From: Acidobacteriota bacterium
Lineage (GTDB): Bacteria; Acidobacteriota; Terriglobia; Terriglobales; Acidobacteriaceae
Length of the DNA: 64,000 nt
Reading direction: 5' to 3'
Assembly (NCBI GenBank): GCA_003225175.1
Contig: QIBA01000040.1
Coordinates: 1-64,000, forward strand
The notes below the pieces were generated by a model. The model saw nothing but the letters and a program-made list of their open reading frames with translations. It ran no database searches and was not told where the DNA came from. Positions 25,026 through 38,213 of this stretch are shown here, piece after piece. The first letter of the stretch is position 1. Each line of letters begins with the position of its first letter. Both the position numbers and the translations under genes were made by a program.

Positions 25026-28000
25026 ATGAGAGAGATGACAAGCAACGACATTACGATTCTTCAAGCGCCGGATTCAGCCCGTGATGTAACGCACCTCTCA
25101 GAGAGCAAGCGGAAGCTCCTCGAAGGCCTGATGCGGGGTGCGCGTCTCAATTCTAGTGAGCGGATTCCCGCCATCACTCCTCGTCCAAACCAAACGAGGG
25201 TTCCTCTTTCTTTGCAACAATTGCAAGTGTGGTTACACGCTGGAATGGCGGTTGAGGTCCCGTTCTACAACGAGACCATAACTTTTCATCGTCAAGGTCC
25301 ACTCTCTCCGGATGTATTGCAACGCTGTTTGTGTGAGGTTGTGCGCCGCCACGAAATTTGGCGAACGACTTTCGAGATTCAAAACGGCGAGCCGGTTCAG
25401 ATTATCAATCCACCTCCGTCCATTTTTCCTCTCGAAGTTGCGGATCTCTCGGAATTGCCAGAATCTCAGCGGGTGCAGAAAGCGGCCGGCCTGGCGAGGG
25501 AGAATGCAAGACGTCCCTTCGACGTAGGCAAAGGGCCGCTGCTGCGTGCATTTCTCGTTCGAATGGGACGCGCGGATCACCGGCTGTATATGACTTTCCA
25601 CCAGCTCATTTTTGACGGTATAACGGCTCAGCGAATTTTCCTTCGCGAAATTGCGACTCTCTATGACGCCTTTTCTGCCGGGAAGCCCTCGCCTCTTCCG
25701 GAACCGCTGATTCAATACGGCGACTTTGCCTACTGGCAGCGAGATCAACTGGCACCGGATGTCTGGGCGCGAGAACGGTCTTTTTGGGAAAAGCAGCTCG
25801 CCGGAAAGCTGCCAGTTTTGGAGTGGCCCTCTGGGCATCAGCGCCCAATATTGGAAACGCATCGTGGTGAGATCCTGCGATTCACGTTCGAAGAGGCAAC
25901 AATTGGTCCGGTGAGAACCCTCAGCCAGCGGGAAGGCGCGTCGATGTACATGACGCTGCTCGCAGCGTTTGGGACCGTGTTGCATAGGTACACAGGGCAA
26001 GATGACATTATTATCGGAGGACTGAGCGCAGGTCGCAATCGCACCGATACGGAATCAATCCCGGGCTTCTTCGTAAATCCTCTAGCACTCCGCATCGATT
26101 TTTCGGGCAACCCAACATTTCGAGAGGTACTCAACCGTGTTCGCACAATGGTGCTGGAGAGTCTAGCTCACGCAGAGCTTCCTTTCGCTCAAGTCGTTAA
26201 GCAAGTTCAGCAGAAATCAGACCCCAGCCGACACCCGCTATTTCAGATCATGCTTTCCCAGCAGCCACGTGATTCGGCGAATCCGGATGGATGGGACTGG
26301 GCGATCGAGGAAGTCTCCAACGGTGGCTCGAAAATGGATTTGTTCGTGATTCTCGACGATCGCGGCGACGGAATCTTTGGCTCGACTACCTACAATCCCG
26401 ATTTCTTCGATGGATCGACGGTCTCCCGCTTCGTCGGCCATTGGCGGACACTGCTGCAAGCTGCGGGGTTGAATCCTGATGAGCACATCTCGGAGTTGCC
26501 GATGTTGACCGAAGCAGAGCGAAATCAGATCCTGGTCGAATGGAACAATACCCAGCGAGATTACGAGACCGATGCTTGTTTGCATGAGCTCATCGAGCGT
26601 CAGGTTGAGCAGAGCCCAGATGTTCCGGCGACCATTTATGAACAGCATCAATTGAGCTATCGGGAGCTGAATGCTCGAGCTAATCAACTGGCACATCATC
26701 TTCGCCAACTCGACGTAGGTCCTGAGACCCTGGTCGGCGTCTGCATGGAACGATCAATTGAAATGATCGTGAGCCTGCTCGGCATTCTCAAAGCAGGTGG
26801 TGCCTATGTTCCTCTCGATCCTGAGTACCCAAAAGATAGATTGCGCATGATGCTCGATGATAGCCGAGTTCCGGTTCTACTTACTCAGAAGCACTTATTG
26901 GAAAAACTGCCAGCCTCGTCTTCACAATTAATCTGTGTGGATTCAGATTGGGAGCAAATCGCTCGAGAGAGTCGCTCGAATCCAGACGGCGTTGCAAGGC
27001 CGCACAATGCCGCCTATGCGATCTATACATCTGGTTCGACCGGAAAACCAAAGGGAGTCCTCAATATTCATTCAGCGATCGTGAATCGATTGTTGTGGAT
27101 GCAGGACGCCTACGGATTGACGAATGACGACCGTGTTCTGCAGAAAACGCCTTATAGCTTTGATGTATCAATCTGGGAATTCTTCTGGCCGCTCATAACG
27201 GGTGCCTGTCTGGTAATCGCCAAGCCTGGTGGGCACAAAGATCCGGACTATTTAATGAATTTGATTTACCGGGAGAAAATAACGACTCTTCACTTTGTTC
27301 CTTCCATGCTGCAGGCTTTGCTGGAAGTGAACGGTCTTGAAGCTTGCAGTTCGTTAAGACGCGTAATTTGCAGCGGCGAAGCTTTATCTCTCGAAGTTCA
27401 GAGGCGTTTCTTCGCTCGTTGTAAGGCCGAGTTGCACAACCTGTATGGTCCAACAGAAGCAGCGGTCGACGTTACCTTCTGGCAGTGCCAGGCTGAACAC
27501 GACCAACCGATAGTCCCGATTGGCCGTCCGATAGCGAACGTCACAATCTACGTCTTAGATCGAAATCTTCATCCAGTGCCGGTAGGAATTCCTGGAGAGC
27601 TACACATAGGAGGGGTGGCTCTGGCCCGAGGGTATTTAAATCGCCCGGAACTAACTGCACAAAAGTTTATTTCCGATCCTTTCAGCAGCGCACCCGGAGC
27701 ACGTCTCTATAAGACAGGAGACCTGGCACGTTATATGCCCAATGGCGCCATAGAGTTTCTGGGCCGCATCGATGATCAAGTTAAAATTCGCGGATTTCGC
27801 ATTGAGTTGGGCGAAATTGAAGCGGTTTTGCATGAACATCCGGCGGTTCGCGACGCGCGCGTCATAGTTCGAGAGGACCTCCCGGGTGATCGCCGTCTGG
27901 TCGCTTATATCGTAACTCTCCAGGGCGGGACCTCTTCTGGGGAAGAAATCCGCGAATTCCTGAAAGAAAAACTGCCTGGCTATATGGTCCCAACGCTAGT

Positions 28001-28331
28001 GACCATTGATCATTTACCAGTGACGCCTAACGGGAAATTGGATCGCCGTGCTCTTCCTACGCCTGAACGCGAGGAGCACGAAGAGACATTTGATGAACCT
28101 ACAGACGAGATCGAACAAATGCTGGCGGAGATTTGGACGGACGTTCTCGGCGTGGAGCGTGTCGGCCTGTACGACAATTTCTTCGATCTCGGCGGACACT
28201 CTCTCTTGGCGATGCACGTAGTTGCCCGGTTGCGAAGCCGGCTGGATCTGCGCATAAGACCCAATGAGCTTGCTTTCCAGACGCTCGGACAAATTGCAGC
28301 TAGCTGCAAAGAGCAATTGCATTGCGCATGA
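25026..28331 (+). CDS. NRPS module C-A-T (predicted Ser)
   Basis: 1101 aa. An N-terminal helix 'SKRKLLEGLMRGAR' leads into a condensation domain (to ~480) with C3 'FHQLIFDGIT' (His192, Gln193, Asp197), again Gln for the second His. The adenylation domain (~510-1010) has 'YTSGSTGKPKG', 'NLYGPTE' and 'NGKLDRRALP'. By eye the specificity residues read D-V-W-H-I-S-L-V-D-K, very close to the serine code. The carrier domain has 'DLGGHSLLAM' with Ser1059. No thioesterase, reductase or epimerase follows. Its stop overlaps the start of the first hydrolase gene (ATGA), so product release probably depends on the hydrolases or on transfer by the extra C domain. Confidence 0.93.
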   Translation: MREMTSNDITILQAPDSARDVTHLSESKRKLLEGLMRGARLNSSERIPAITPRPNQTRVPLSLQQLQVWLHAGMAVEVPFYNETITFHRQGPLSPDVLQRCLCEVVRRHEIWRTTFEIQNGEPVQIINPPPSIFPLEVADLSELPESQRVQKAAGLARENARRPFDVGKGPLLRAFLVRMGRADHRLYMTFHQLIFDGITAQRIFLREIATLYDAFSAGKPSPLPEPLIQYGDFAYWQRDQLAPDVWARERSFWEKQLAGKLPVLEWPSGHQRPILETHRGEILRFTFEEATIGPVRTLSQREGASMYMTLLAAFGTVLHRYTGQDDIIIGGLSAGRNRTDTESIPGFFVNPLALRIDFSGNPTFREVLNRVRTMVLESLAHAELPFAQVVKQVQQKSDPSRHPLFQIMLSQQPRDSANPDGWDWAIEEVSNGGSKMDLFVILDDRGDGIFGSTTYNPDFFDGSTVSRFVGHWRTLLQAAGLNPDEHISELPMLTEAERNQILVEWNNTQRDYETDACLHELIERQVEQSPDVPATIYEQHQLSYRELNARANQLAHHLRQLDVGPETLVGVCMERSIEMIVSLLGILKAGGAYVPLDPEYPKDRLRMMLDDSRVPVLLTQKHLLEKLPASSSQLICVDSDWEQIARESRSNPDGVARPHNAAYAIYTSGSTGKPKGVLNIHSAIVNRLLWMQDAYGLTNDDRVLQKTPYSFDVSIWEFFWPLITGACLVIAKPGGHKDPDYLMNLIYREKITTLHFVPSMLQALLEVNGLEACSSLRRVICSGEALSLEVQRRFFARCKAELHNLYGPTEAAVDVTFWQCQAEHDQPIVPIGRPIANVTIYVLDRNLHPVPVGIPGELHIGGVALARGYLNRPELTAQKFISDPFSSAPGARLYKTGDLARYMPNGAIEFLGRIDDQVKIRGFRIELGEIEAVLHEHPAVRDARVIVREDLPGDRRLVAYIVTLQGGTSSGEEIREFLKEKLPGYMVPTLVTIDHLPVTPNGKLDRRALPTPEREEHEETFDEPTDEIEQMLAEIWTDVLGVERVGLYDNFFDLGGHSLLAMHVVARLRSRLDLRIRPNELAFQTLGQIAASCKEQLHCA

Positions 28332-29137
28332 GCCCGCATAACGGCATAACACCTTTCTATTTCGGTCTGCCCGATAAGCCGCTTTTCGGTTGCTACCATA
28401 AACCGCGAGCTGGACGCGACCGTCAATGCGCTGCAGTTATTTGTCAACCAATGGGGCACGAATACATCAATTGTCACCGTGCCCTGCGGCACCTGGCCAG
28501 TCGCCTCGCTGATGCTGGCTTTCCCGTTTTGCGCTTTGATTATTACGGCTGCGGCGATTCCGCCGGTGAGCCCGCAGATGGTGGAATCGCTCGATGGATG
28601 AAGGACATCTCTGCCGCCATCTCTGAAATAAAGACTTGGACGAGTCTGAGTGACGTCTGCGTGATTGGAGTCCGATTAGGTGCCGCTTTGGCAACCTTGA
28701 CCGCCGTTCAGAACGGTGGTTTTGAGAGCCTCGTGCTTTGGGATCCCGTGGTGGAGGGACGAGGCTATCTTCAAGAGCTTCTTAGCCTGCAAAAGGAAAT
28801 GCTGCGTTTCCGCCCCAAACCAATCCGGCGCAAGTGTCTTTCGGGTTTCATTGAAGTGCTCGGCTTTCCATTGTCAAACGATCTCTGTTCCGAACTGGAA
28901 AAGATTAATCTGCTGCAGATTTCGAAAAAACCCGCCAGGAACGTGCTAATCATCCGAAGCTGCCAATCAGGCGATGAGGGCGCTCTGGAAGGGCATCTGA
29001 ATCAAAGTGAAGCTTCGACGACAGGCGACCTACTAGATATTCCCAAGGTCTGGTTACCAACGGTTGATGGCAGCCTATTAGTTCCTAATAAGGCACTTCA
29101 ATCAGTAGTCTCTTGGGTCTCGAGAATTCACGCATGA
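28328..29137 (+). CDS. Alpha/beta hydrolase fold, exosortase-A-type hydrolase 1-like; nucleophile replaced
   Basis: 269 aa from ATG 28328, overlapping the NRPS stop; a TTG 6 bases earlier is not needed. 'ADAGFPVLRFDYYGCGDSAG' marks the alpha/beta hydrolase core and resembles the hydrolase pairs of exosortase-A loci. The nucleophile elbow reads Gly-Val-Arg-Leu-Gly, with Arg116 where Ser/Cys should be, and no clear C-terminal catalytic His is seen. It may be a non-catalytic partner of the next gene product, or use other chemistry. ATGA overlaps on both sides tie it tightly to the NRPS and to hydrolase 2. Confidence 0.82.
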   Translation: MSPHNGITPFYFGLPDKPLFGCYHKPRAGRDRQCAAVICQPMGHEYINCHRALRHLASRLADAGFPVLRFDYYGCGDSAGEPADGGIARWMKDISAAISEIKTWTSLSDVCVIGVRLGAALATLTAVQNGGFESLVLWDPVVEGRGYLQELLSLQKEMLRFRPKPIRRKCLSGFIEVLGFPLSNDLCSELEKINLLQISKKPARNVLIIRSCQSGDEGALEGHLNQSEASTTGDLLDIPKVWLPTVDGSLLVPNKALQSVVSWVSRIHA

Positions 29138-30084
29138 GAGAACAAGCTGTCGTCTTTGGCGAGTCGAACTCGCTGATTGGGATCGTAACTGATCCTTCAG
29201 AACCGAGTCGGACTCTTAACACAGGTGTCATTTTGCTGAATCCAGGTGTTGTGCACCGCGTCGCCCCTGGCCGCGTTTACGTGAAAATAGCACGAGCCCT
29301 TGCGGGAGCCGGTTTCGTCGTTCTTCGGTTTGATTTTTCAGGGATTGGCGATAGTGCGGTTCGCCGGGATAATCTTCCGTTCGAAAAGAGCGCAGTGGCG
29401 GAAACACAAGACGCAATAGAGTTTCTAAAGGGCACTCGAGAAATCGAACGGTTCATTCTTCTAGGCGGATGCTCGGGAGCGCGCGTCTCGTTTCGGACTG
29501 CCTGCTCCGACCGGCGTGTGGTTTGCGCAATTCCGATTAACTTCCCAGTCAGCGACGATGAAGACAGCAATCCCGATCTGATAAATCAGCGCGTTGCGCA
29601 ATACTATTGGAAATTTGCTTTTTTCAACCTGAAGAGTTGGATCAAGCTGTTTACTGGCAAAGCCGACTACAGCAAGATATTTAAAGCATTGCGCTCTCAG
29701 GCAAGGCGTCGTCTTAGCTCGGAGCGCACGATCTCGTCGGAGTCGCCTCAGCTTGCCGAGGACTTAAATCTGCTAGGTAGTCGAGGCGTTCGGCTTGTCT
29801 TTCTGTATTCAGAAAATGATCCACGTCTGGGCGAACTGCGTGAAGCAGGCGGAAAAGGGCTCAAGCGACTGTGTGAGCTGGAAAAGATTCAGCTTGAGGT
29901 CATTCGCCGGGCGGACCATACCTTCAGTTCGCTTGACGATCAAGAGCGACTTGTAGAAGCGATTCTTGCCCATGTTGAAACGATAACTCCCGCCAGGGCT
30001 AATTGCGCAAGTACTATTCGAGATGGCAATAGAGCGGCTCATCAAGTTCTCGGTTTAACCTGTACTGAAGCGCAGCCTGGCTGA
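29134..30084 (+). CDS. Alpha/beta hydrolase, exosortase-A-type hydrolase 2-like; candidate release enzyme
   Basis: 316 aa from ATG 29134 (ATGA overlap with the previous gene). 'VLRFDFSGIGDS' is the core loop. The nucleophile elbow reads Gly-Gly-Cys-Ser-Gly, placing Cys113 (or Ser114) as nucleophile. 'SENDPRLGEL' supplies the acid and 'RRADHTFSS' the His, so a triad looks complete. A Cys nucleophile is unusual for this fold but known in dienelactone-hydrolase-type and some thioesterase-like members. Directly behind a TE-less NRPS, it is the best candidate to cleave or transfer the carrier-bound peptide. Exosortase-A hydrolases have no established substrate. Confidence 0.83.
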   Translation: MREQAVVFGESNSLIGIVTDPSEPSRTLNTGVILLNPGVVHRVAPGRVYVKIARALAGAGFVVLRFDFSGIGDSAVRRDNLPFEKSAVAETQDAIEFLKGTREIERFILLGGCSGARVSFRTACSDRRVVCAIPINFPVSDDEDSNPDLINQRVAQYYWKFAFFNLKSWIKLFTGKADYSKIFKALRSQARRRLSSERTISSESPQLAEDLNLLGSRGVRLVFLYSENDPRLGELREAGGKGLKRLCELEKIQLEVIRRADHTFSSLDDQERLVEAILAHVETITPARANCASTIRDGNRAAHQVLGLTCTEAQPG

Positions 30085-30255: not shown

Positions 30256-33189
30256 ATGGCTTGTGTCGAGAATCGTCTAAACGTACAAATGCCCGAGGTT
30301 TGCCCATTCGGAGCTACAACTTTGCCCGCGGTCGAGCAGCGTCCATTACCAGTTCAGCTGTTGCCAGCTGAACGCGAGTTCTACGCTTCATATTCCTGGT
30401 CTCTGAACATTTATCCAACTGTTCGCGAGGTCATCGCGCATCTTCGCGCCGAGGTTAACAGGTTGAGCGGGGCAGAGGAACCGTGGCAGCGGGCTGAAAT
30501 GCTGACGAACATCTTTCTATTCTGCTGCGCAATTGCAAACGAAGTTGACGATTATCTTGTGGGAAGACCTCGCGATTTCTCAAAGCTTTCCAAGCTTCCG
30601 CTTGGCGGAGCGGTGCTGCGGGCAATACGGCCCTTTGTACGTAATGGCCAAAGATTTCAAGAATGGAGACTGCGAGATCTTCGGGCCTGGAGAGATAGAT
30701 GGCACGTTGAGTTCGACGAATATCTGCAGAGCTTTGTCAGCGGAGAGTTCCTTTCTTCAGAGACGTCACCCCTGGCTGGGCTGATAACGGCATTCTCGAA
30801 TCGACTTCCCGCCCAGCTCTTAGATCGGCGCCTCAGAAATCCTGCATTTTTTCACGGTCGCGATCTTACCCACTTTGACATCTTGAGCTTAGGCGACAAA
30901 TTTGTCACTCGATTCCCGGATCCGAGCAAACCTATTGTGCTTGTGGGATTACGCACCGCCGGGTCGTACTTCGCACCTTTGGTACGAGCATATCTTCGAA
31001 AAAAAAGCTACGAAAATGTTGAGTTGGTCACTCTTCGCCCACGCAGTACTTTGAGCCAGGCTGAAAAGGCACACCTTGCTTCGTGTGCTAAACAGGAAAT
31101 GATAGCTGTCTTGCTGGATGAGGCTCCTATCGGCGGAGGATCGACGGCAGAAGTGATCAAGCACCTGGAAAAGTTAGGTTTTCACGAAGATCGAATCGTT
31201 GCTTTGTTGCCCATTCACCGCCTTCACACTGACTGGAAAAAAGGCTGGGATACACAAAGAATTGCAAAGGCCTGTGCTCTAACTCTCGAACCACATGAAT
31301 GGTACAAGGAAAAAGCTCTGGCAACTGAGTCTGTCGGGCCTCTTCTGAATGAATACTTCCAAGCGCGTGGCTATCTTTCCGCAGAAGTGATTAACAGTTC
31401 TAAAGCAGAGCGCTTGAACTTTGAACTGCAATTACTTTCGGATGAAAAATATCATACGCGGCACAAAAAGATTTATGAGGTCCATTTGCAAAAAGCTTCA
31501 GGGGATTTCGAAGTCCGCTTTGTCTTCGCAAAGAGTGTGGGTTGGGGTTGGCTTAGTTATCATGCCTTCACAGTTGGCGAGAGACTATCCAACTTTGTGC
31601 CTCCCGTGCTCGGGCTCAGAAACGGCTTCCTTTATACTGAGTGGAGACCCCAAGCGAGCGGCCACGTTGCAGAAATCTCCAACGCTCAGCTGAGCACTAT
31701 TGCATCCTACATTGCTGCGCGTAAGCGCACGCTCCCGTTACACGACGACCCTAGCTCGGATTTAATTCGCGAGAAACAGCACACTGCGCATGAAGAGTTA
31801 TTGAATACGCTGAGCCGGGCATATGGGTCGAGGATTGTGCGATTCCTCAAGCGACCTGAAGTCCAACGTCAGCTTGCACGATATGCCTGCCCCTACCCTA
31901 CTTTGATCGACGGAAAGATGCGTGGAGTTGAATGGGTCGCAGGATCTTCAACATTCTTCAAGGCTGATTTTGAGCATCATGGTATGGGGAAGAAAGAGCT
32001 TGAGATGACGGATCCTGCCTATGACCTGGCAGAAGCCATTCTTCACTTCAAGCTTTCGGAAGGGCAAGAGCACGAACTCGTTACTCGATACAGCGAAGAA
32101 TCTGGCGATCTGGATGTAAACAACCGACTGCTTCTTAATAAGCTGCTTGCGGGGCGTTGGTCGATGAATCAGGCCCTGGCGAATATCAGAGACACGCGTT
32201 TATTACACCGGGTGCAGGATTCGAATCGGCAATATCTGGATGCATGTGACTTTTTGACGAGACACACAATGCGGTTCTGCGCAGCCTTCTGCAATCGCCC
32301 GAAGGCTTCAGCGTGGCGCTCGCCGATAGTTGCGCTGGATATCGATGGAGTCATTGACAAACCGGTATTCGGCTATCCGTCCACCACTGCAGCCGGTATT
32401 GAAGCGATCGCGCTTCTCCATTCGCATGGCTTTGTTGTTGCCCTTGATACAGCCCGATCTCTTTCTGAAGTGAAGGATTATTGCCAGACTTATGGATTTG
32501 TCGGAGGAGTGGCCGAATACGGCAGTGCAATATGGGATGTGGTTGCTGGACGAGAACGTGCTCTCGTTGGGCCCGAAGCCTTAGCGCAATTGGACCGAGC
32601 CAGGAAGGCACTCCGGACAGTGCCCGGTATTTTTATAAACGAGGATTATCAATACTCTATTCGAGCCTACACCTACAGTAAAGAACAAACCTCCGCCCTG
32701 CCCACCATGCTCATTCAGAATCTAATCGGAACTCTCAATCTGGATCAGCTTAGATTTCATCAGACAACTCTTGATACTGCGATACTTGCCAAGAGTGTAG
32801 ATAAGGGTACGGGATTGATCGAGCTTATCAACGGGGTAAGCGTCAATGATCCTGAAATCATAGCGATTGGAGACTCAGAGCCAGATCTCGCCATGTTTCG
32901 AGTGACCACGCGATCCTACGCTCCTTCACACATCTGGTGTCGTGCCGAGGCGGAGGCACTGGGATGCCGCGTAGCTACTAAACCTTTGCAGTCGGGATTG
33001 CTCGAGAGCGTCCGCTCGTTGATCCATCCAGACGGAAAATGTTGTGAACTTTGCAAATCATGTGAGAAGGCGTGGAGCAAGTCTGATGATTTGATTCTGC
33101 GCCTTTTGCAAGTAGCCGATCAGAAAAGGCTTAAATTGCTCATGACCACCGCAGTGAATCCTCGTGTATGGCGGGCTTGTTTGCGGTAA
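30256..33189 (+). CDS. 977-aa multidomain protein: PRTase-like, kinase-like and HAD phosphatase regions
   Basis: I do not recognise this protein as a named family. Residues 1-~200 are helical and unassigned. At ~215-310 there is a phosphoribosyltransferase-like Rossmann region: 'PIVLVGLRTAGSYFAPLV', then 'VLLDEAPIGGGSTAEVI' (from ~285), which resembles the PRPP loop. At ~370-680 the sequence recalls aminoglycoside-phosphotransferase-type kinases, with 'LIDGKMRG', 'KADFEHHGMG' and 'DPAYDLAEAI' (Asp586). From ~690 there is a HAD hydrolase: 'ALDIDGVID' (Asp695/697), 'DTARS', 'KGTGLIEL' and 'GDSEPDLAMF' (~871). A short Cys cluster follows ('CCELCKSCEKAW'). The HAD part could be a sugar-phosphatase. 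Context places it between the NRPS/hydrolases and the flippase. Function unknown. Confidence 0.75.
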   Translation: MACVENRLNVQMPEVCPFGATTLPAVEQRPLPVQLLPAEREFYASYSWSLNIYPTVREVIAHLRAEVNRLSGAEEPWQRAEMLTNIFLFCCAIANEVDDYLVGRPRDFSKLSKLPLGGAVLRAIRPFVRNGQRFQEWRLRDLRAWRDRWHVEFDEYLQSFVSGEFLSSETSPLAGLITAFSNRLPAQLLDRRLRNPAFFHGRDLTHFDILSLGDKFVTRFPDPSKPIVLVGLRTAGSYFAPLVRAYLRKKSYENVELVTLRPRSTLSQAEKAHLASCAKQEMIAVLLDEAPIGGGSTAEVIKHLEKLGFHEDRIVALLPIHRLHTDWKKGWDTQRIAKACALTLEPHEWYKEKALATESVGPLLNEYFQARGYLSAEVINSSKAERLNFELQLLSDEKYHTRHKKIYEVHLQKASGDFEVRFVFAKSVGWGWLSYHAFTVGERLSNFVPPVLGLRNGFLYTEWRPQASGHVAEISNAQLSTIASYIAARKRTLPLHDDPSSDLIREKQHTAHEELLNTLSRAYGSRIVRFLKRPEVQRQLARYACPYPTLIDGKMRGVEWVAGSSTFFKADFEHHGMGKKELEMTDPAYDLAEAILHFKLSEGQEHELVTRYSEESGDLDVNNRLLLNKLLAGRWSMNQALANIRDTRLLHRVQDSNRQYLDACDFLTRHTMRFCAAFCNRPKASAWRSPIVALDIDGVIDKPVFGYPSTTAAGIEAIALLHSHGFVVALDTARSLSEVKDYCQTYGFVGGVAEYGSAIWDVVAGRERALVGPEALAQLDRARKALRTVPGIFINEDYQYSIRAYTYSKEQTSALPTMLIQNLIGTLNLDQLRFHQTTLDTAILAKSVDKGTGLIELINGVSVNDPEIIAIGDSEPDLAMFRVTTRSYAPSHIWCRAEAEALGCRVATKPLQSGLLESVRSLIHPDGKCCELCKSCEKAWSKSDDLILRLLQVADQKRLKLLMTTAVNPRVWRACLR

Positions 33190-33388
33190 TCCTAAATGTG
33201 AGTAGTATCCAGCCCAGCTGCGCACGAGTAGCGACGCAGGTCTCTTCTTTGCCTTCAATAAAGCATAGATTTTTCTTGTGGCCGCCTATCTAAATTGCTG
33301 TAACTTCGCCGGTCGGGCATGAATGATCGAAAGATGAAAAGAAAATAAGTAAACTTGCGCAGCAGATTCATGGCAACAAAGGAACGTG

Positions 33389-34933
33389 ATGCTACGTCGC
33401 GTCTTGCACGCCGCTAATGCCATCATTTTGGGAAATGTGATTACTCGGGCCGGAGGTCTAATTCTGGTCCCGCTTTTCTTGAAATATTGGTCAGCCACTC
33501 TCTATGGGGAGTACCTTGCGCTGTTTGCAGCCGCTGGTTACCTGTCCAGTCTGGATATCGGCATGCAGGGGGCGGCTGTCAATCGGCTTACTCAAGCTTA
33601 CGCAAGACAGGATCTCGATGAATATCAGGCTGTCCAACATACGGCTCTGACGTTTTTCATCATTCTCGCCGCGACCGTTACAGTCCTGGTTGCATGTCTT
33701 GCATGGCTATTACCTATCCCAAAATGGATCGGCCTCAGGCTTACACCGCCCGCAATAGCCACGCAGGTTATTATCCTCTTAGCTGCCTGGGTGATGTGGT
33801 CAATGCCAGTGCAAGTGGCTACCGCCACTCACCAAACGATGGGAAAGTTGGCGCGCACACAGTGGATCCGAAACGCGCAACAGGTGATCGTGGTAGTCCT
33901 CACCTCATTTGCGGTAATCGCTGGTGCAGGAATGAGAACCATTGCGTTCCTACAACTGCTGACCGTTGGACTACTTGCCTTATTCATGATCATGGAGCTG
34001 AGGTCTCAATATCCGGCGCTTACGCCTGGAATTACTGGGGCCAAACTTTCTTTGCTCAAGGAACTGATGCACCCGAGCTTCTTGTTCGCACTAATCATGG
34101 TCGGAAACTTAGTTGCTTTTGAGGGCAGTATTCTTCTCGTGTCGGCGGCAATGGGCGGTCTCGCGGTTGCCATGCTTTCAATCTCGAAATCATTGGTGGA
34201 CGTCATCCGTTTAGGTCTGTATAGCATCAGCCTGGCGTTCTGTCCTGATTTTGCGCGAATGGAGGCGCTGGGTGAACTTGAAAAACTGCGAAGGATTCAT
34301 CGGCTTTTGGTTGCTGGCACGGCCGCTATAACTCTCGCACTCGTCGCCAGTTTCTGGTACGAAGGTCCAGAGTTCATCAGCATGTGGACGCGTGGCCGTA
34401 TTACTCCCGATGCGATGTTATTGCGGTTGTTTTTGGTCTTGATGGCATTCCAGACCTCATGGGCCGCCAGCTCAACGGTAGCTCGAGCGAGCAACAAGCA
34501 CAATGCGCAAGCGATCGGCTACTTCTTCGCAGCAGTTATTGGCATTGCTTTTGTTGCGGCATTGCTGCCGCGTCTTGGAACCTGGGCTGTGCCTGTGGGA
34601 CTGACGTTAGGCGAGGCAATCTGTTGTTACCACTTTGTGATTAAGTCCACGTGCCGCATGATCAATGAGCCTTACGCGCCTTTTGCTGTGCGCTTCTGGT
34701 TTGGATTCGTCGCAGTGGCCACTGCAGTCCTCGCTGTGGGATGGATCGTGCACATGATACATGCACCGATGCTGATTCGCTGGATCTTAATGGGGTGTCT
34801 CACAATGGTGGTCGCCGCCGCTTGCGGATGGGTAGCCTGGCTGATGCCCGAAGATCGTCTGCTACTCCTGCCGAAGCTCCGCGCTCAGCTCAGCATCTCT
34901 GACATCAAGACCTGGCAGCGGCTGAATCCGTAG
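33389..34933 (+). CDS. Wzx-like oligosaccharide flippase / polysaccharide biosynthesis membrane protein
   Basis: 514 aa from ATG 33389 (a GTG immediately before it at 33386 is equally possible; AAAGGA lies upstream). It is almost entirely hydrophobic, with about 12-14 membrane segments, and starts with the family-typical 'NVITRAGGLILVPLFLKYW' in the first helix. This is the MOP/PST superfamily. It should flip undecaprenyl-linked repeat units across the cytoplasmic membrane. It is the only flippase candidate in the locus and sits near its end, with the polymerase-like gene far upstream at 9847. Confidence 0.87.
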   Translation: MLRRVLHAANAIILGNVITRAGGLILVPLFLKYWSATLYGEYLALFAAAGYLSSLDIGMQGAAVNRLTQAYARQDLDEYQAVQHTALTFFIILAATVTVLVACLAWLLPIPKWIGLRLTPPAIATQVIILLAAWVMWSMPVQVATATHQTMGKLARTQWIRNAQQVIVVVLTSFAVIAGAGMRTIAFLQLLTVGLLALFMIMELRSQYPALTPGITGAKLSLLKELMHPSFLFALIMVGNLVAFEGSILLVSAAMGGLAVAMLSISKSLVDVIRLGLYSISLAFCPDFARMEALGELEKLRRIHRLLVAGTAAITLALVASFWYEGPEFISMWTRGRITPDAMLLRLFLVLMAFQTSWAASSTVARASNKHNAQAIGYFFAAVIGIAFVAALLPRLGTWAVPVGLTLGEAICCYHFVIKSTCRMINEPYAPFAVRFWFGFVAVATAVLAVGWIVHMIHAPMLIRWILMGCLTMVVAAACGWVAWLMPEDRLLLLPKLRAQLSISDIKTWQRLNP

Positions 34934-36371: not shown

Positions 36372-38213
36372 ATGAAACGCCTATTACTACCTCTCGTGTT
36401 GGCGCTCTTTCTGCTGTCACCTCTAGTTCCATTATGGGCACAGCTGCAGGAGCCATCTCCGCCAGTCAACATTATTATCGACTCTGACATGTCCGAAAAC
36501 GTGGACGACGTGGGCGACCATGCTGTTTTGTGGGCGCTTCAGAACCGTGGTGAGGCCAATATACTTGCGATCGTGGCCTCATCAGCGTACGACTATAGCG
36601 CTCCCGCCATGCGAGTAATCGCAAACTATTATGGCCATCCGAATGTCCCGATCGGCGCACACAAAGGCAGCACACCGACCAGTGAGGGCTCTAATACGAG
36701 CGTATACGCACAACAAATTGCGAATCAGTTCGGCACGCCGGGAGACACACGGTTCAATTACCCCGATGCAGTAACTGTGTATCGACAGGCGCTCGCAAAT
36801 GCTCCTGACCACAGCGTCTACATTGTGAGTAACGGCTACTTTCAGCCCTTGCAAGGGCTGCTGAGAAGTCAGCCTGATGGCATCAGCTCACTTACAGGTC
36901 TACAGCTTATTGCGCAGAAGGTGAAGCGCCTGGTGTGCTCAGCTGGCACTTTCCCATCCGGAAGCGAGCACAACTTCCGAGTCGATCCCGATGCTGCGAG
37001 CTATGTCTTTGCTAATTGGCCAGCTGAAATCGTCTCAGTTGGCTCCGAAGTAGGAGGAGATGTGCCCACCGGCCCATCACCGACATCAGATCCAAACCTG
37101 GATCCAGTGAGGGCGGCTTACGGTTATTTCGATGCCTACTATGGCCGGACGGACCTGACAATGTACGCATGGGGCCAGGTAGCGTTGTTATACGCAGTGC
37201 GAGGTGGAATTGGAACAAACTTTTCCATCGGCGGGTACAACGGTCAAACGACCGTTTGGGATAGTACACAATCGCAACCAGGATACGATGTTTGGTCCCA
37301 ATCACCCAGCGTTGGACATTCGTATCTGGAGAAATCCGTTTCTGCTTACACCATGTACACCATTCTTAATCCTATGGTGCAAGGCTCGTCCAGTATCCCA
37401 ATTCTCAGAAGCATCTCACCCTCAACGATCGCTGCAGGTAGCCCCGCCCAGACAGTAACTTTGACAGGCAACAATTTCTTTAACGACTCACAGGTGTTCT
37501 TCAATGGGAACAGCCGTCCATCTACATTGATCAGCGGGACGCAAGTTGGAGTCCAACTGAGCAGTACCGACTTAGCGCAAACTGGGACTGCTACATTGAG
37601 CGTCTTAAATGACGCCGAGGGTGGCTGGCGATCAAATAGCGTCAATCTGAATATTGTCAATCCCATGCCTTCTCTGGCCGCCATTTCACCTGCCAGTGTT
37701 AATGCCGGGAGTGCCGGCTTTACGCTGAACCTCACCGGCAGCAACTTCGTCCCTGGCTCCTCAGTTCAAGTGAATGGAACCAGCCGAAGCACTACATTTA
37801 TCAGTGCTACTCAACTAGGTGCTGCTATTCCCGCCTCTGATCTAACCGTTGGAACCTACCTCTCTGTGACAGTCTTCAATCCAGCTCCAGGGGGCGGCAC
37901 TTCGGCTGCGCTTACTCTGACCGTCAACAACCCAGCGCCTTCGATCTCCAGCGTCTCGCCAAATCCGGTTCTCGCAATGACGGGAAGCTATACCCTGACT
38001 GTTAATGGCGCTGGATACAACAGAGCGTCGGTTGTGAAGGTTGACGGCAAGTCAGTTACGACGGTACTTGTAAGTTCAACTCAAATGACTGCTCGAGTGC
38101 CTAACAATGATTTGCTTCTCGGGCAGCATGCGATCACTGTGTCAAATCCGACGCCTGGAGGTGGCACATCCAATTCAGTCACTGTAACCGTAGTCTCCAC
38201 TCCGATCTTCTGA
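36372..38213 (+). CDS. Secreted nucleoside-hydrolase-like protein with three IPT/TIG repeats
   Basis: 613 aa with GAGG before the ATG. A signal peptide ('LLLPLVLALFLLSPLVPLWA') precedes residues ~33-340, which resemble inosine-uridine nucleoside hydrolases: 'IIIDSDMSENVDDVGDHAVL' is a variant of the Ca-binding DTDxGxDDAxA motif, and 'NGYFQPL' matches a later loop. Three IPT/TIG immunoglobulin-like repeats of ~90 residues follow (from ~345, ~430 and ~520, each beginning 'P-x-I/L-x-x-I/V-S-P'). The repeats probably bind carbohydrate or hold the enzyme at the surface. It ends the plus-strand run and is followed by a strong terminator. True nucleosidase activity is unproven. Confidence 0.8.
   Translation: MKRLLLPLVLALFLLSPLVPLWAQLQEPSPPVNIIIDSDMSENVDDVGDHAVLWALQNRGEANILAIVASSAYDYSAPAMRVIANYYGHPNVPIGAHKGSTPTSEGSNTSVYAQQIANQFGTPGDTRFNYPDAVTVYRQALANAPDHSVYIVSNGYFQPLQGLLRSQPDGISSLTGLQLIAQKVKRLVCSAGTFPSGSEHNFRVDPDAASYVFANWPAEIVSVGSEVGGDVPTGPSPTSDPNLDPVRAAYGYFDAYYGRTDLTMYAWGQVALLYAVRGGIGTNFSIGGYNGQTTVWDSTQSQPGYDVWSQSPSVGHSYLEKSVSAYTMYTILNPMVQGSSSIPILRSISPSTIAAGSPAQTVTLTGNNFFNDSQVFFNGNSRPSTLISGTQVGVQLSSTDLAQTGTATLSVLNDAEGGWRSNSVNLNIVNPMPSLAAISPASVNAGSAGFTLNLTGSNFVPGSSVQVNGTSRSTTFISATQLGAAIPASDLTVGTYLSVTVFNPAPGGGTSAALTLTVNNPAPSISSVSPNPVLAMTGSYTLTVNGAGYNRASVVKVDGKSVTTVLVSSTQMTARVPNNDLLLGQHAITVSNPTPGGGTSNSVTVTVVSTPIF

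Follow-up and report, generated by a model that had tools for sequence, protein, structure and literature searches.

What could a bacterial protein do that carries, on a single chain, a phosphoribosyltransferase (PRTase)-like region, a kinase-like region and a HAD phosphatase? The question is raised by a 977-aa open reading frame (ORF) of an Acidobacteriota bacterium, located in a stretch of 64,000 nt hereafter called the window (positions 1 to 64,000 of contig QIBA01000040.1, assembly GCA_003225175.1, a genome in 268 contigs). A sequence-only reading had described it as an unnamed fusion of these three regions. The ORF proves genuine, a member of an unnamed family in which a helical N-terminal domain is followed by PRTase, kinase-like and HAD domains; in a check for a known single-function family covering the full length, no Pfam or NCBIfam model was found to match it end to end, and the three-domain architecture is undescribed in the titles and abstract openings found by an open-access literature search.

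The answer that we propose, and hold to be slightly on the probable side, is that the protein is a ribosyl-transfer machine for a surface glycan, dependent on phosphoribosyl pyrophosphate (PRPP). Its PRTase domain would move ribose-phosphate from PRPP onto a building block of the glycan and the fused HAD-IIB domain, the motifs of which are intact, would then take off the 5'-phosphate. The kinase-like domain, with a likely fold of the aminoglycoside phosphotransferase (APH)/choline kinase type but apparently no catalytic Asp, would most likely bind the acceptor instead of phosphorylating it. The observed basis of this proposal is the domain order, the conservation of catalytic residues and the location of the genes in glycan clusters.

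The family and its distribution

An earlier scan of contigs with a single sequence gave no loci; with a six-row alignment, 45 homologous loci were found in GTDB contigs, four of them (L054, L076, L078 and L094) on contigs already found in the searches of genomes. Going by the titles of the records, the family spans seven phyla, under labels that include Acidobacteria, Alpha- and other Proteobacteria, Bacteroidetes, Gemmatimonadetes, Nitrospirae, Rokuibacteriota, Armatimonadetes and others. The carriers are mostly metagenome bins, the named strains being Flavobacterium cellulosilyticum AR-3-4 and Confluentibacter sediminis DSL-48. The window copy shares 29 to 53% identity with the 45 other rows of a 46-row alignment (A3). 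Of 61 genomes near the window's, its own included, 12 have a match of any kind at E<=0.001 and four a full-length copy. Of 396 genomes surveyed across the phylum, again with its own, three have a full-length or nearly full-length copy, one more has two pieces near contig ends, and 12 show any match. The plasmid records contained no full-length copy, only three records of Sinorhizobium medicae having a partial match.

The tree of 48 rows, rooted at its midpoint, has a deep split that separates 19 rows from 29 (SH-aLRT 100). Phylum labels change 11 times along it, the least possible number being 6, so that old paralogy, mixed bins or some transfer between phyla likely lies behind the pattern. 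Two loci, L063 and L068, in bins of different origin, have one copy from each deep clade at most 9 kb apart in the same gene cluster. An apparent PRTase-HAD-glycosyltransferase fusion in L084 (3645-7142, with a Glycos_transf_1 hit) was rejected as an assembly artefact because the ORF passes through a run of N; the L084 row was retained in A3, the structure prediction, the tree and the 44 focal loci compared below.

The PRTase and HAD domains

The first AlphaFold2 model, made from six rows, was poor (pLDDT 62.8); the one made from A3, covering residues 29-977, reached a pLDDT of 90.7 and a pTM of 0.92. Conservation of catalytic residues was counted in a 49-row alignment, where denominators of 48 or 46 are the rows that have the position.

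The PRTase profile of the family, compared with the PDB, matched UMP synthase (E 1.9e-4) and a purine PRTase (E 3.4e-4), with PyrR proteins next. Aligned by hhalign to the PRTases of related genomes it gave 76% (E 2e-5), as against 0.1% and 0.2% for two mismatched controls. At E<=0.1, 29 of 46 members matched the Pfam model Pribosyltran, the best at 1.8e-7, and Foldseek comparison of the whole model with viral models returned a phage phosphoribosyl transferase (probability 1.00, E 0.03, positions not reported). The loop of PRPP type that had been noticed near residue 285 spans residues 284-297 and includes D288, present in 48/48 rows. This residue is followed by D or E at 289 (48/48), T or S at 293 (45/48), G294 (40/48) and T296 (44/48), and the family conforms to the type I PRTase loop pattern hhhhD[DE]xxxTGxT.

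The HAD domain is the only one that Pfam reports on the window copy (Hydrolase_3, 42.8 bits for a cut-off of 20.9); a NCBIfam model of a HAD-IIB subfamily was matched below its cut-off (29.4 versus 41.8 bits). The full set of HAD motifs, said to begin at residue 695, was borne out by the alignment: D695, D697, a T or S at 732 and R734 are each kept in 48/48 rows and, with L084 set aside, K850, D873 and D877 in 46/46. Motifs I and II are 37 residues apart and motifs II and III 118, with an alpha/beta cap between the latter (alignment positions and secondary structure of the model). The best structural match is 1wr8 (Z 23.7, rmsd 2.6, 224 residues aligned), the other top matches being likewise C2-capped sugar phosphatases. 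With motifs I-IV and a C2 cap, the domain is of the HAD-IIB class.

Gene neighbourhood and the nature of the acceptor

The neighbours of the family gene within 10 kb were compared between 44 focal loci (L054, on the same contig as the copy of G004, a genome of the same genus as the window's, was excluded) and 20 control stretches. These were hand-picked in four genomes near that of the window, the focal loci spanning many phyla. ORFs came from a simple longest-ORF script, and some neighbours are possibly spurious. A phmmer test with the proteins of the window was insensitive (a glycosyltransferase or sugar transferase in 15/44 versus 1/20, any of seven proteins in 19/44 versus 1/20; 0/9 for the loci of HAD-less relatives), which is why we used profiles iterated jointly over focal and control DNA. 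With these, a glycosyltransferase, sugar-phosphate transferase or Wzx was found in 34/44 focal loci versus 3/20 controls, GT4 alone accounting for 20/44 versus 2/20. Several types were confined to the focal side, with 0/20 in controls: polysaccharide deacetylase (19/44), FemAB-type acyltransferase (27/44), proline dehydrogenase (PRODH) fold (17/44), AsnB (9/44) and AMP ligase (7/44). A reading of a neighbour cluster of 62 ORFs (c1) as glycosyltransferases was discarded, the largest part of the cluster, 32 ORFs, being the FemAB-type group; the counts given above come from separate models.

A Pfam scan was run independently. The 136 neighbour proteins from 40 focal loci (L054, L084, L090, L094 and L095 unused) were reduced to 125 by removal of seven above 780 aa and then four above 690 aa; the 145 control proteins became 132 after removal of 13 above 780 aa. 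Acetyltransf_6 is the commonest family near the family gene (18 of 125 proteins) and does not rank among the 25 commonest families in the 132 control proteins. In 8/8 genomes examined, the contig that carries the family gene has, within the surveyed stretch, a match to it that exceeds the Pfam cut-off. Family genes thus lie in surface-glycan clusters. The sequence-only reading had suggested the making or modification of a phosphorylated precursor; the context across phyla favours transfer followed by dephosphorylation over the making of such a precursor.

The acceptor could also be a small molecule (an amino acid, a group bound to a non-ribosomal peptide synthetase (NRPS) or ACP, or a base) that is joined to the glycan later, an idea that we regard as unlikely without dismissing it. 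NRPS modules and a P450 are present in the window, and FemAB-type acyltransferases are frequent among the focal loci. The two sides of the tree, moreover, each have an enzyme of their own: the PRODH-fold gene is restricted to one (clade A; 17/19 loci versus 0/25) and the AMP ligase to the other (7/25 versus 0/19), a comparison in which L063 and L068, having both clades, were assigned to clade A, and L090 and L094, outside the tree and without PRODH match, to the 25 others. But the hydrolase pair and the P450 next to the window gene are shared with its nearer relatives only and have no direct tie to the PRTase. The window copy is on the non-clade-A side, and no FemAB or PRODH match was found within the window.

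Other features of these neighbours may be mentioned. The PRODH-fold protein, found for instance at L076:8958-9986 and in 16 other focal loci, has a profile E value of 5e-28 to Thermus proline dehydrogenase. An Arg-Arg pair of the Thermus sequence, which we take to have a substrate-related role, is missing at the corresponding place of the family profile, and the substrate may accordingly be other than proline. In L069, L070, L072 and L074, a protein of 767-813 aa lies just upstream of the family gene; its L069 copy has a protein-kinase match below the Pfam cut-off.

Relatives without HAD and weighing of the proposal

The PRTase and kinase-like pair also exists by itself. ORFs that encode this pair, loop motifs included, in 552-653 aa and without HAD were found in the window's own genome (L021), in six others (L045-L049 and L051), in L044 and L050, and also in Sinorhizobium medicae, on its plasmid pSymB (L170). 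In L005 (367 aa), hmmsearch detected the N-terminal helical domain joined to a PRTase with neither the kinase-like nor the HAD part. No HAD of this family was present among the ORFs surrounding the HAD-less genes tested, and a match to a glycosyltransferase, sugar transferase or Wzx was found in 1/9 loci tested, a GT4. In two distant genomes (L045 and L170), a histidine phosphatase, 39% identical between the two, is encoded near the HAD-less gene, at most a hint that a separate gene may supply a phosphatase step alongside these PRTases. Next to the HAD-less gene of two loci (L049:7558-7836 and L051:6745-7029) lies a conserved ~90-aa protein, with a related stretch in L048.

A number of observations weigh against ribosyl transfer to a glycan. 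The PRTase sequence match is mostly limited to the PRPP loop, and the window copy, which Pribosyltran does not match, departs from the usual loop: residue 293 is G (T or S in 45/48 rows) and residue 296 is S (T in 44/48). No glycosyltransferase or Wzx was found in 10 of the 44 focal loci, of which three are shorter than 6.2 kb and seven are 17-23 kb long, and the choice of controls close to the window for loci of many phyla bears on the contrast itself. The histidine phosphatases were not found in the other eight of ten HAD-less loci; they are on the opposite strand in both loci, with an overlapping ORF intervening in L170. Their top PDB match is phosphoserine phosphatase 1, the CobC alpha-ribazole phosphatases coming lower, and this better fit slightly lowered our confidence. 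Nothing in the analysis of the carriers points to production of a ribose-containing glycan, and the proposal, for which we still see marginally better than even chances, draws on sequence, model and context.

The altered loop would also suit a PRTase that merely binds PRPP, as a sensor or scaffold, next to a HAD that is a working sugar phosphatase for nucleotide-sugar supply. Regulatory PRTase folds do exist, PyrR and the pur operon repressor being among the profile matches. This we find improbable: D288 is as invariant as D695 of the HAD, and the HAD-less PRTase-kinase relatives stand alone.

The kinase-like domain and weaker alternatives

For the middle domain, sequence comparisons gave little (choline kinase profile, E 0.014; hhalign probability 3.4%). 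Foldseek comparison of the whole model with viral models returned ethanolamine/choline kinases (probability 1.00, E 4e-3 and 1.4e-2, positions not reported). For this domain, modelled as part of the whole chain, an APH/choline-kinase fold is thus likely rather than proven. The 'DPAYDLA' motif first noticed as APH-like is at residues 586-592, and its D586 and D590 are both kept in 48/48 rows, as is D571; K426 and D552 are kept in 49/49. Such invariance could suggest a working site, hence an active kinase with unusual residues in a protein that both phosphorylates and dephosphorylates. Yet the position expected to hold the catalytic Asp, 554, has K (20 rows), R (18), N (6) or Q (5) and Asp in 0/49, and the His of the catalytic motif is likewise present in 0/49, in a register set by the one weak hhalign alignment (3.4%) and by the next strand starting at W560 in the model. 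The domain is therefore probably a pseudokinase, and an active kinase step appears very doubtful, with the reserve that the register itself is weakly based.

We practically discard the idea that the HAD supplies the heptose-bisphosphate phosphatase lacking beside the cluster's gmhA-like and hddA-like genes (both below model cut-offs), since its class, HAD-IIB, differs from that of GmhB, a GmhB-like gene lies elsewhere on the same contig (G000:C40:132780; 117.3 bits, under the 149.6 cut-off; the sole match of model TIGR00213 in the genome at E<=0.001, and not the family protein), and the heptose-type genes accompany only three of the loci surveyed, namely the window's and those in two genomes from its family, many flanks being short. 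A link with Ter-type operons was not upheld either: at E<=0.1 the 46 members match 24 families, none of which bears the name of a Ter-associated Pfam model (PRTase, TRSP, ATP-grasp).

The gene in its window

Coordinates are collected in Table 1. Much as the sequence-only reading had it, the gene is placed between two hydrolase genes of exosortase type (both under model cut-offs) and a Wzx-like gene. The Cys-rich tail that it described is present in the window copy but is not a feature of the family, C930 being found in 20/49 rows and C933 in 21/49 (gaps counted). Two exosortase genes are present in the genome, one on the window's contig (G000:C40:95317-96102) and one at G000:C116:6745-7539. 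The adenylation domain of the NRPS module at 25026-28331 resembles serine-activating domains in its presumed specificity code. The nucleoside-hydrolase-like/TIG protein possibly acts on ribosides.

Table 1. Positions in the window of the family gene, of the parts of its product and of neighbouring genes
Feature	Position	Strand	Basis or remark
PRTase / kinase-like / HAD fusion protein, 977 aa, ATG start	30256..33189	+	
All-helical N-terminal domain, residues ~37-190	30364..30825	+	AlphaFold2 secondary structure, hmmsearch
Type I phosphoribosyltransferase-like domain, residues 195-385	30838..31410	+	Profile, hhalign, Foldseek
PRPP-binding loop (predicted), residues 284-297	31105..31146	+	
Choline-kinase/APH-like domain, residues 390-680	31423..32295	+	K426, D552, D571, D586, D590 kept; putative catalytic Asp position is K554
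HAD-IIB (C2-capped) phosphatase domain, residues 688-925	32317..33030	+	Pfam, NCBIfam, structure match 1wr8
Cys-containing C-terminal tail, not family-conserved	33031..33186	+	
Alpha/beta hydrolase, similar to exosortase-associated hydrolase 2, upstream neighbour	28322..29137	+	104 bits, cut-off 202.75
Alpha/beta hydrolase, similar to exosortase-associated hydrolase 1, immediately upstream	29113..30084	+	105.4 bits, cut-off 168.45
Wzx-like flippase, weak match, immediately downstream	33386..34933	+	18.5 bits, cut-off 300
Nucleoside-hydrolase-like domain and TIG repeats	36372..38213	+	Has relatives close to the family gene at several loci

Comparison with known systems

Two of the domains, taken singly, can be compared with known proteins. 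With the HAD-IIB sugar phosphatases (PH1421/1wr8, mannosyl-3-phosphoglycerate phosphatase) the family shares the whole HAD domain and its cap, but its HAD is fused to a PRTase. With choline/ethanolamine kinases and APH it shares the likely fold of the middle domain and the DPxxDLA motif, whereas their catalytic HxDxxxxN would correspond to Dx[KRNQ]MxxxE, in the register adopted above; the family lends itself in this respect to testing whether a kinase fold has been put to a use other than kinase chemistry.

The order of events proposed has precedents. In the excerpts cited, transfer followed by dephosphorylation is the established scheme for bipartite ribofuranosyltransferases (PMC11127046, PMC10299916, PMC12096443, PMC11231755), and a PRPP transferase and a HAD are on one chain in Bcs3, Cj1432 and the Klebsiella O4/O7 enzymes (PMC10299916, PMC12096443, PMC11231755). 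These gPRT and PRP enzymes (Klebsiella O4/O7, Bcs3 CriT/CrpP, Cj1432) are, like the family, encoded in surface-polysaccharide clusters. They differ from it by the HAD cap, described as helical for the known PRP domains (PMC10299916, PMC11127046, as excerpted) and of the alpha/beta C2 type, between motifs II and III, in the family, which has in addition a kinase-like and a helical N-terminal domain. The family PRTase, for its part, matches ordinary type I PRTases, which may or may not set it apart from the gPRT fold; known gPRT enzymes are not among the Foldseek/VIA matches listed, but HAD dominates these lists, which makes them uninformative on this point. As its cap is not helical, we do not class the family with the gPRT and PRP enzymes: it is predicted to work like the dual-domain ribofuranosyltransferases but, given the different cap, looks like a separate invention.

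Enzymes that add ribose to bacterial polysaccharides were identified only recently, and the authors of PMC11127046 took the PRP HAD domain as marker in looking for further ones. Searches with that marker would probably miss the family because its HAD differs. If the proposal is true, ribose is predicted in glycans of members of seven phyla (going by record titles), glycans that nobody is known to have examined.

A further comparison is with the polyprenyl phosphoribose synthases (Citrobacter ORF15, Rv3806c), which also take ribose-5-phosphate from PRPP, ORF15 being likewise fused to a HAD. Their transferases are membrane proteins of the UbiA type in the account given by PMC11127046 (cited in part), whereas that of the family is a Rossmann-like PRTase. 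We therefore raise, tentatively and with less assurance than the ribosyl transfer itself, the possibility that besides gPRT/PRP and the UbiA-type synthases the family is a third, independently evolved way of ribosylating bacterial surface glycans from PRPP, made of a classical PRTase, a dead kinase as acceptor-binding module and a C2-capped HAD, with two deep clades that could act in series on the same glycan, as might be the case in L063 and L068.

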